Shown piece by piece: positions 39,710 through 41,791 of a DNA stretch of 64,000 nt (the stretch's first letter is position 1; the number at the start of each line of letters is the position of its first letter). A program made the translations under genes and the position numbers. Source of the DNA: Nostoc sp. FACHB-973 (GTDB lineage Bacteria > Cyanobacteriota > Cyanobacteriia > Cyanobacteriales > Nostocaceae); the NCBI RefSeq assembly GCF_014698115.1, contig NZ_JACJSJ010000005.1, positions 1 to 64,000 on the forward strand, written 5' to 3'. The notes beneath the pieces are model-generated. The model ran no database searches. It saw nothing but the letters and a program-made list of their open reading frames with translations, and was not told the origin of the DNA.

Positions 39710-41791
39710 ATGCATCGATTTCGAGTAGAGGTTATTGCCAAAACCCCAAACCCGCAGCAGCTGATCTATGCCGCGATGCACCAAGACTATACCGATGGGT
39801 TCGTGTTTGATGAGCGCGACTCATGGCCTTCGGAGTCACAAAGCGGTGAAATTATTGTCAAGCGACTTTTAGCGGGAGAAAGAGGACATTATGGGCCTCT
39901 AGAGCATCCCCAGATTGTTTTCAACTGTGGTTATTTTCCCCACAGTGTTATGCAGCAGGCACGTACTCATCGAGTTGGAGTATCGTTTGATGTTCAATGT
40001 CTAGCATCTGATACAGAAATTACCTTCGTTAACTGTGAAGGTCAAACTAACCAGAAATTGAAAAAAACCATTGGAGGGTTATACGACCTTTGGACTAATG
40101 GGGAAAAAGCCATTCGTCAACGGTCGATTCGCGGTAGAAATGGACAACCACCCGGTCAATATCGACGTGACTATAAACAACGTATCCGCAAAATGCGCCT
40201 GCGAGTTCTAAACGAAGAAACTGGCTTATTTGAAGTTGGACATATTAAAGATCTAATGTGCAGTGGTCTTCAGCCTGTCTACCGAGTAACTTTAGAAGAT
40301 GGAAAAACCTTAGATTGTACCGTTAATCATCGCCTTTTTACTTCAGAAGGCTGGGAAAAGATGGGTGATGCAGTTGGTTTGGTTACTAATCTTGATGGTA
40401 GTGTAGCCAAAATGACTAAGCCATGCAATGTAATGTGTAATGGTATGGCAGTAGTAGGCAATGGGCTTTACAGAAATCGAGAATGGCTGGAATCTCAGAT
40501 TGTAAAAGGATTGTCTACATTAGAGATTGCACAAATGTCTGAATGTTCAATCAATACACTAAAAAATTGGGCTAATAGATATGGATTATCTTTAAACCAA
40601 AAAGATAGTAAATTTTCTCATGGTCATCAACCCTGGAACTATAACTCTAATGCACTTTATCGAGACAAAGCTTGGTTAGAAGAGCAACTTCATCGAGGAC
40701 TTCATGCTGATGAAATAGCAGCATTGGCTAACTGCTCAATAGAAGCAATTAAAAAATGGGTTTATGCTTACGGATTATCCTTGAATAAGAGATCCCCTGG
40801 CACAAAAAAACCGTGGAATAAGGGTAAAGGTGGTTACAATTTAAACCTATCAGAAGAAAGTAGTCAAAAACGTATTGAGAATGCCAAGAAATATACCAGA
40901 AGAGGAGAAGAATCGAACTTTTGGAAAGGGGGTACATCTACTGAGCGTGAGCTAATAGGTGCATGGACAAGGGAAATTGCGCCAGTAGTACACGATAAGT
41001 TTAACTATATTTGTCAACAATGTAGAGTTCGGGGTGGTATTCTTCATGCTCACCATCTAGTACCAGTTTATGCTGATGAATCCTATGCTTATGACTTTGA
41101 AAATTTAGTGACTTTATGCAAACAGTGTCACGAATCTATTCATCAGAACAACCAAGAAACGGAATTTGCTCAATTTTACAACCCCATTATAGATACAGAA
41201 AATTGGCAACCTAAACCAAAGCCACTGAGCAAAAAACTCCAAGCGCATCCAGTCAAAGTGAAAAGTGTAGAATACCTTGGACAACAAATGACTTATGACA
41301 TAGAAGTAGAAGGATCTTGGCATAATTTTGTTGCTAATGGCATGGTAGTTCATAACTCTTTCCGTTATACCGGGAACCAATTTATTGATGTAGTAGAAGG
41401 CAAAAAGGACATAGAAGATGTTATTTATCTGCGTCCCGTTGGTTATTACACAGACAGGCAAGGGAAAAAGTACCACTACACACCAGAACAACGAGCAGCG
41501 GATTTGGAGTGGTGTCTAGAAGCAGCTAAACGATATAAAGCCGATTTTGAAGGTGGAATGTCTGAAGAACACGCCAGAGGTAAAGTGCCTTTTGACTATC
41601 GTCAGCATTTTGTAGTTAGTTTCAATTTAAGGTCTTTCTTGCATTTTTGTGACCTGAGAAATAAGAAAGATGCTCAACTTGAAATTCAAAAGTTGTGTGA
41701 AATGATGTGGCCTCACTTTGCAGATTGGGCACCTGCGATCGCCCAATGGTATGAAAAGCAGCGTCTAGGTAAGGCTAGGTTAGCACCTTAG
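39710..41791 (+). CDS. thyX: Flavin-dependent thymidylate synthase ThyX with intein
   Basis: A 693-residue precursor. The exteins (1-96 and 550-693, 240 residues together) form ThyX, which makes dTMP from dUMP with FAD, NADPH and methylene-tetrahydrofolate. Visible are YGPLEHPQIVF and the signature RTHRVGVSFDVQ-SFRYTGNQF, an RHRxxSxxxxSxRYT-type motif. An intein with N-terminal Cys97 and C-terminal Asn549 splits this motif between Gln96 and Ser550, in the substrate and flavin site, so the unspliced enzyme should be inactive. The C-extein has YTPEQRAADLEWCLEAA and the catalytic-region FNLRSFLHFCDLR. No separate thyA is in the window. Confidence 0.95.
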   Translation: MHRFRVEVIAKTPNPQQLIYAAMHQDYTDGFVFDERDSWPSESQSGEIIVKRLLAGERGHYGPLEHPQIVFNCGYFPHSVMQQARTHRVGVSFDVQCLASDTEITFVNCEGQTNQKLKKTIGGLYDLWTNGEKAIRQRSIRGRNGQPPGQYRRDYKQRIRKMRLRVLNEETGLFEVGHIKDLMCSGLQPVYRVTLEDGKTLDCTVNHRLFTSEGWEKMGDAVGLVTNLDGSVAKMTKPCNVMCNGMAVVGNGLYRNREWLESQIVKGLSTLEIAQMSECSINTLKNWANRYGLSLNQKDSKFSHGHQPWNYNSNALYRDKAWLEEQLHRGLHADEIAALANCSIEAIKKWVYAYGLSLNKRSPGTKKPWNKGKGGYNLNLSEESSQKRIENAKKYTRRGEESNFWKGGTSTERELIGAWTREIAPVVHDKFNYICQQCRVRGGILHAHHLVPVYADESYAYDFENLVTLCKQCHESIHQNNQETEFAQFYNPIIDTENWQPKPKPLSKKLQAHPVKVKSVEYLGQQMTYDIEVEGSWHNFVANGMVVHNSFRYTGNQFIDVVEGKKDIEDVIYLRPVGYYTDRQGKKYHYTPEQRAADLEWCLEAAKRYKADFEGGMSEEHARGKVPFDYRQHFVVSFNLRSFLHFCDLRNKKDAQLEIQKLCEMMWPHFADWAPAIAQWYEKQRLGKARLAP
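39998..41356 (+). mobile_element. ThyX intein with HNH homing endonuclease
   Basis: 453 codons, in frame. Splicing block A is CLASDTEITF (Cys1) and block B is YRVTLEDGKTLDCTVNHRLFT with the TxxH. Block F is MTYDIEVEGSWHNFVAN and block G is GMVVHN followed by Ser. Between them lies an endonuclease region with two related helix-turn-helix modules (REWLESQIVKGLSTLEIAQM and KAWLEEQLHRGLHADEIAAL, each ending YGLSLN), a NUMOD3-like KKPWNKGKGG segment and an HNH domain (CQQCRVRGGILHAHHLVPV, then ENLVTLCKQCH). All splicing residues are present. The endonuclease also looks intact. Confidence 0.93.

Follow-up and report, generated by a model that had tools for sequence, protein, structure and literature searches.

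The thyX gene of Nostoc sp. FACHB-973 (labelled G000 in all comparisons) contains a long insert within the conserved ThyX motif, which raises the question of whether this insert is an intein and, if so, whether it was inherited, moved recently or acts as a switch of dTMP supply. Inteins are thought to spread by homing. We consider the insert to be a selfish class 1 HNH homing intein that lies in the only thyX found, would splice itself out, is apparently still mobile and has probably moved recently by homing together with a short flank, rather than serving as a switch. We give this reading, which is drawn from sequence comparison, a probability of about 0.87. The window referred to below is the whole stretch of 64,000 nucleotides that was analysed.

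Identity and anatomy of the ThyX insert

The insert (1359 nt, 453 codons) lies in frame within thyX, directly after Gln96 and before the second of the conserved serines in the ThyX motif (SFDVQ/SFRYTG, the slash marking the insertion point). The initial annotation had placed an intein in the ThyX signature at the positions given in Table 1, and it proposed comparing the insert with intein families and surveying relatives for the empty site. Its placement is correct to the base, as indicated by Cys1, the TVNH block, the terminal HN, the +1 Ser and the match to PF14890, and both comparisons agree with it. A search of 53 genomes of the genus found the intein in 3 of 43 orthologous thyX; because the other 40 are empty at exactly this junction, the boundaries of the intein are not a guess. 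In hmmscan searches of Pfam, the whole protein matched Intein_splicing (PF14890; E 1.5e-14, 54.5 bits vs. a cut-off of 35.8) and HNH (PF01844; E 7e-8, 32.9 bits vs. 21.4). Of the NCBIfam models, intein_Cterm (TIGR01443) scored 23 bits, over its cut-off of 15.6, and intein_Nterm scored 20.7 bits, below its cut-off of 24.5. The equivalog TIGR02170 (cut-off 87.9) scored 147.7 bits on the FACHB-973 ThyX and 171.2 bits on the identical ThyX protein from an empty allele. By its profile matches and residues, the insert is a class 1 intein with a predicted HNH homing endonuclease. The computed masses are 28.2 kDa for the spliced ThyX and 51.8 kDa for the intein, where ~27 and ~50 kDa had been given initially. 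The HNH endonuclease is absent from the initial annotation. In the six-frame genome search, the ThyX intein is split into two pieces (29.9 and 25.5 bits), each below the PF14890 cut-off, and there are three more intein-like matches in the FACHB-973 genome (L203 on C68, L204 on C187 and L207 on C193), two of which exceed the family cut-off.

Table 1. Features of the thyX locus of FACHB-973, with positions in the window
Feature	Positions	Strand	Evidence
thyX open reading frame, 693 aa	39710..41791	+	no interruption of frame
ThyX N-extein, 96 aa, ends ...ARTHRVGVSFDVQ	39710..39997	+	runs straight into the C-extein at the same place in 40/43 genus orthologues
Class 1 intein, 453 aa, C1 ... T-V-N-H ... 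V-V-H-N, then Ser	39998..41356	+	profile matches; invariant residues
ThyX C-extein, 144 aa, starting at the +1 Ser, with stop codon	41357..41791	+	profile match; empty alleles of the genus
N-terminal splicing region, intein residues 1-126	39998..40375	+	closest solved structures are DnaB inteins (4o1r and 1mi8 among them)
Endonuclease insert, intein residues 127-410, two HTH-like stretches and HNH domain	40376..41227	+	PHROG 8446
HNH domain, intein residues 339-383	41012..41146	+	PF01844 over cut-off; residues invariant in A1
C-terminal splicing region, intein residues 411-453	41228..41356	+	TIGR01443 over cut-off; PF14890
Upstream part of carrier-shared tract, -4 to -1	39994..39997	+	differs from G399 at -4 and -1; G419 and FACHB-3921 the same at both, G404 at -4 only
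Downstream part of carrier-shared tract, +1 to +9, TCTTTCCGT	41357..41365	+	differs from G399 at +3, +6, +7 and +9; identical in G000, G404, G419 and FACHB-3921

The FACHB-973 intein can be aligned over its whole length with fifteen other full-length inteins, at 58-92% identity, and in this alignment (A1, n = 16) C1, T108, N110, H111, H452 and N453 are invariant (16/16), as is C107, near block B, an internal Cys that might form a disulfide with Cys1. Block B of the class 1 intein is the T-V-N-H at residues 108-111, and the C-terminal His-Asn is followed by Ser, one of the residues (Cys, Ser or Thr) that class 1 inteins require there. The best-matching solved structures for the splicing halves are DnaB and DnaX inteins. 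Between these halves, PHROG 8446, a family of phage HNH endonucleases, covers intein residues 158-383 (E 5.4e-22), the FACHB-973 version being embedded in an intein. Two HTH matches in Pfam, at residues 169-195 and 230-255, are below their cut-offs, and the HNH residues C339, C342, H352, H353, N369, C374, C377, H378 and H382 are invariant in A1.

According to these conserved residues and the example of a splicing-active relative, Cys1 would attack the Gln96-Cys1 bond, the chain would move to the +1 Ser, Asn453 would cyclise, and the ligated 240-residue ThyX would regain its motif. In four carrier pairs, which have sequences in common with one another, dN/dS was 0.09-0.14 in the N-terminal splicing region (residues 1-126) and 0.10-0.15 in the splicing halves; the endonuclease part had values of 0.17-0.35, its 95% upper limits being 0.27-0.71 in 4/4 pairs. 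Because the upper limits are below 1, the splicing and endonuclease parts have both been under selection, and by this measure the selection on the endonuclease part is purifying.

Distribution among relatives and the route to dTMP

In total, 168 thyX loci were fetched and 143 were parsed; the 25 unparsed loci comprise 22 divergent ThyX among the best family matches, G036, G183, and G335, for which only the N-extein was found in the stretch. With CHAB 5836 and G419 counted once, 142 rows were obtained: 71 counted as empty (a number that includes the misplaced parse of G268 and a few second thyX copies of their genomes), 56 with an insert at the junction of the FACHB-973 intein (site b), 14 whose intein lies five codons further upstream (site a) and 1 unclear. 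An order-wide draw of 388 genomes, with a ThyX match in 217, contains at least 53 genes with an insert at site b, FACHB-973 included, counted among the matches that were fetched; these make up 53 of the 56 site b rows, and the other three are G404, G419 and FACHB-3921. The site b inteins start with Cys in 56/56 rows and end with His-Asn in 55/56. One site b row (G123) was parsed out of frame. Their lengths of 166-456 aa extend from inteins with a complete endonuclease down to mini-inteins. The other site b inteins of the order share the junction of FACHB-973, and the full-length ones (16 with that of FACHB-973) share its whole length, but in many the endonuclease, complete here, is partly or wholly missing. 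In G404 (L173 9454-10314), the intein has 287 residues; an internal deletion has removed residues ~173-338 and left the reading frame, the splicing ends and the HNH residues intact.

The site a inteins, seen in 14 parsed genes (L091, L092, L093, L156-L165 and L167), form a second, distinct clade and precede the first conserved Ser of the motif. In 11 of these genes a Cys stands directly before the intein and in 3 a Met; elsewhere this position is mostly Val or Ile. Those with a Cys next to Cys1 would be better candidates for redox control than the FACHB-973 intein.

The FACHB-973 genome (9.52 Mb in 263 contigs, estimated to be 100% complete) contains one copy of thyX according to the genome search, and it has no match to PF00303 (thyA) or to PF00265 (thymidine kinase). 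Because a single thyX was found together with no match to either family, dTMP synthesis in FACHB-973 probably requires splicing. The initial annotation had proposed that dTMP supply depends on splicing and might respond to redox or stress, and it named a second thyX or thyA as grounds for rejection. The dependence remains plausible in FACHB-973, where no such second gene was found, whereas for the proposed control no supporting feature was found. A thyA-like gene does occur in the carrier G419, ~1 kb downstream of the intein-bearing thyX, so that the ground for rejection applies there, and given this gene, the dependence of dTMP on splicing is not general among carriers.

The slot beside the redoxin-like gene is occupied by thyX in 9 of 12 compared loci (noted for L172 9069-15237, L208 2564-8836, L209, L210 and L211). 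In G240, G265 and G378, which have no thyX match, a thyA-like gene of ~500 residues occupies that slot instead, and in G419 and G402 both genes are present in succession. The thyA-like protein of G419 exceeds the cut-offs of PF00303 and of the pterin-binding domain PF14251; its match to TIGR03283, the methanogen-type ThyA, stays under the cut-off, and its N-terminus shows a weak MtrA-like match. The thyX of G402 (L183, ~1530) has an in-frame stop, and the thyA-like gene lies downstream. This pattern looks like gene displacement in progress.

The empty sister allele and the probable movement of the intein

A genome labelled as the same species, G399, has an empty site and an identical 240-residue ThyX. 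It aligns with the window in blocks of 96.4-99.1% identity with several breaks; the break in thyX is the intein, and the two blocks flanking it are 99.1% and 99.0% identical. Over 2000 flanking bases (1000 on each side), FACHB-973 and G399 differ at 16 positions, located upstream at distances 1, 4, 37, 302, 413, 526 and 726 and downstream at distances 3, 6, 7, 9, 420, 469, 577, 787 and 803. Seven of them (-37, -4, -1, +3, +6, +7 and +9) lie no more than 300 bases from the insertion. The binomial probability is 3.8e-8 for 7/16 differences in the 47 bases from -37 to +9 and 5.7e-10 for 6/16 in the 13-base stretch from -4 to +9, both ranges having been picked after the data were seen.

At the six sites from -4 to +9, FACHB-973 is identical to G419 and FACHB-3921 and unlike G399, and G404 deviates at -1 only. 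Over the other 666 extein bases, 1 difference separates FACHB-973 from G399 and 103 separate it from FACHB-3921. When 720 extein positions were scanned for bases shared by the carriers (4/4) and rarest among 57 near empty alleles, +9 (4/57), +6 (6/57), +7 (8/57) and -4 (20/57) came out on top. FACHB-3921 itself is nearest to the empty allele G370 away from the junction (62/666 differences) and matches the carriers at the junction. Both the cluster of differences and the shared bases are accounted for by homing in which a short flank was co-converted. We infer that the HTH-HNH part cuts the empty site SFDVQ/SFRYTG and that the break is then repaired on an intein-bearing template, which brings in the intein with a short flank; the flank common to the carriers fits such cutting of an empty allele by the FACHB-973 intein. 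The activity of the endonuclease, the identity of the donor and the choice between a gain here and a loss in the sister are likewise matters that we infer.

Silent divergence was compared among the intein, the extein and the adjacent redoxin-like gene. The silent differences per site in that order are 0.137, 0.286 and 0.375 between G000 and G419, 0.225, 0.603 and 0.639 between G000 and FACHB-3921, and 0.114, 0.294 and 0.307 between G000 and G404, with the intein interval below both others in each pair; in these 3 of the 7 comparisons with the FACHB-973 allele, the intein value is less than half of the other two. For G000 and G035, the values are 0.437, 0.618 and 0.657, and the intervals are likewise separate. 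In three of the seven comparisons (G000 with G274, G278 and G292), silent change is not clearly lower in the intein, which is therefore not simply slow at silent sites. The intein is also not clearly below the neighbouring gene in the pairs G035-G274, G035-FACHB-3921, G274-FACHB-3921 and G278-G292. On an extein tree of 80 rows, which omits three site a rows and one duplicate genome, the presence of the intein needs 13 changes (gains or losses), at least 10 of them on well-supported branches, and a tree with the omitted rows also needs 13. FACHB-3921 groups with the empty G370 on the extein tree (100/99) and with G000, G419 and G404 on the intein tree (92/45, a weak grouping with an SH-aLRT of 45).

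If the intein were ancestral to the family and had been lost many times, no recent transfer would be needed. The 13 changes on the extein tree could indeed be mostly losses, inteins of 166-167 aa without an endonuclease suggest long residence in other lineages, and the 3/7 comparisons without a silent deficit agree with such a history. However, old vertical inheritance does not readily accommodate the three comparisons in which silent divergence falls below half of that in the extein and the neighbouring gene, the bases at -4, +6, +7 and +9 common to carriers of different species, or the conflicting positions of FACHB-3921 on the two trees, and we consider it quite improbable. A different account would place the event in G399, where an empty donor would recently have converted an intein-bearing thyX. 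Such a conversion would likewise leave a short tract, and G404, on a neighbouring branch, is also intein-bearing. Against this account, the FACHB-973 allele agrees with carriers from other species at all six differing positions that lie no more than nine bases from the junction, and the junction bases GTA and TTTAGG of G399 are common to its empty relative G400. Because of the latter, a gain in FACHB-973 is favoured, and we regard a loss in G399 as unlikely, though a serious contender.

That the insert is no intein, but an in-frame insertion by chance, a mistake of assembly or a dead fusion, has a vanishingly small probability in view of the family matches over cut-off, the full set of splicing residues, the constraint on the splicing region and the 55 further parsed genes with an insert at the junction (one of them out of frame). 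In a regulatory intein, redox or stress acting through Cys1 would tune splicing and gate the supply of dTMP. Cys1 is the ordinary nucleophile of class 1 inteins. The N-extein has no Cys beside Cys1, ending in SFDVQ with its nearest Cys at -24. Although thyX seems to be the sole route to dTMP in the FACHB-973 genome and conditional splicing is reported for other inteins (PMC7765530), 40 of 43 congeners do without the intein, including the same-species-labelled genome with an identical ThyX, and G419 additionally has its thyA-like gene. Moreover, the Ter ThyX mini-intein was spliced nearly fully in E. coli (PMC3620165). With no Cys at the junction on the N-extein side and 40/43 congeners free of the intein, no feature in support of a redox or stress switch was found, and we believe it to be very improbable. 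Recent homing into thyX is the reading that we retain.

In the search for a close phage donor, a scan of viral contigs with the single protein gave no match, and a plasmid search gave none either. A scan of viral contigs with A1 identified 9 loci, six of which have a ThyX-like ORF with an intein as judged by eye (in L198, L201 and L202 the filter used gave none). The closest full-length viral intein, L194, is only 56% identical, and therefore no near donor was found. By eye, the viral inteins occupy site b in L194, L195 and L196 and site a in L197 and L200. L195 and L196 carry a cyanobacterial-type thyX with a 234-residue intein, and L195 also has a repeat-rich ORF that resembles a phage tail protein by eye. 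The site a intein of L197 matches the FACHB-973 intein in two blastp pieces (4e-69 and 7e-48) with nearly full coverage together, and it sits among the site b inteins in the tree (89/78, on a long branch), which suggests that an intein switched between the two neighbouring serines.

Known ThyX inteins and the motif arginine codon

A ThyX intein of Trichodesmium erythraeum (Ter ThyX) was reportedly described by Liu and Yang in 2004. Like the FACHB-973 intein, it lies in a cyanobacterial thyX, and its engineered mini version splices efficiently in E. coli, at ~100% (PMC3620165). A mycobacteriophage ThyX intein, TdS, is also known (PMC5050341). TdS and the ThyX inteins of the mycobacteriophages Colt and StAugustine resemble the FACHB-973 intein in their ThyX host, HNH-type insert, Cys1, His-Asn end and +1 Ser; unlike it, they lie before the first conserved Ser, by eye the equivalent of site a, and they are ~27-34% identical to it in parts only. 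Natural co-conversion of a flanking residue is reported for the MCM inteins of Haloferacales (PMC10643990). These inteins have several close insertion sites, as do the ThyX inteins with sites a and b; both MCM sites can be filled, whereas no parsed thyX has both (14 at site a, 56 at site b). In searches of the open-licence literature on ThyX inteins and intein co-conversion, we recognised no account of a near-identical empty ThyX sister allele. ThyX inteins as such are already known, and what is new is the clear trace, read from sequence, of recent movement between relatives. A natural case with a near-identical empty sister is useful, and a G399-type background combined with several carriers offers matched natural alleles for tests of splicing, cutting and silent changes.

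One such silent change concerns the motif Arg codon, located two codons after the +1 Ser. In 54 of the 56 site b rows it reads CGN (of the other two, one has AGA and one is out of frame); among the 71 empty rows, 53 have AGR, 17 have CGN and 1 (G268) has neither. When only rows with an identity of 80% or more in both exteins are compared, 14/14 carriers and 8/58 empty alleles have CGN, and 50/58 of the latter have AGR; all of these counts are inflated by the relatedness of the rows. For reference, AGR makes up 21% of the Arg codons in the long open frames of the window (123/598). On the extein tree, codon and intein are concordant in ~6 sister pairs and discordant in 1, as counted by eye, and the sign test is not significant (two-sided p ~0.13). 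A clear exception is G220, which is intein-bearing with AGA and has two empty sisters with CGT. It is conceivable, though distinctly unlikely in our view, that a homing intein shapes the silent codons of the ThyX motif, with AGR weakening recognition by the endonuclease and carriers bringing a CGN flank. If this were true, the empty alleles would be naturally resistant to a selfish drive through synonymous changes inside an essential active site. The near empty alleles with CGN at this codon are G413, G295, G363, G229, G228, G166, G386 and G270 (n = 8), and on the tree G228 and G166 fall among intein carriers, where past carriers would be expected.
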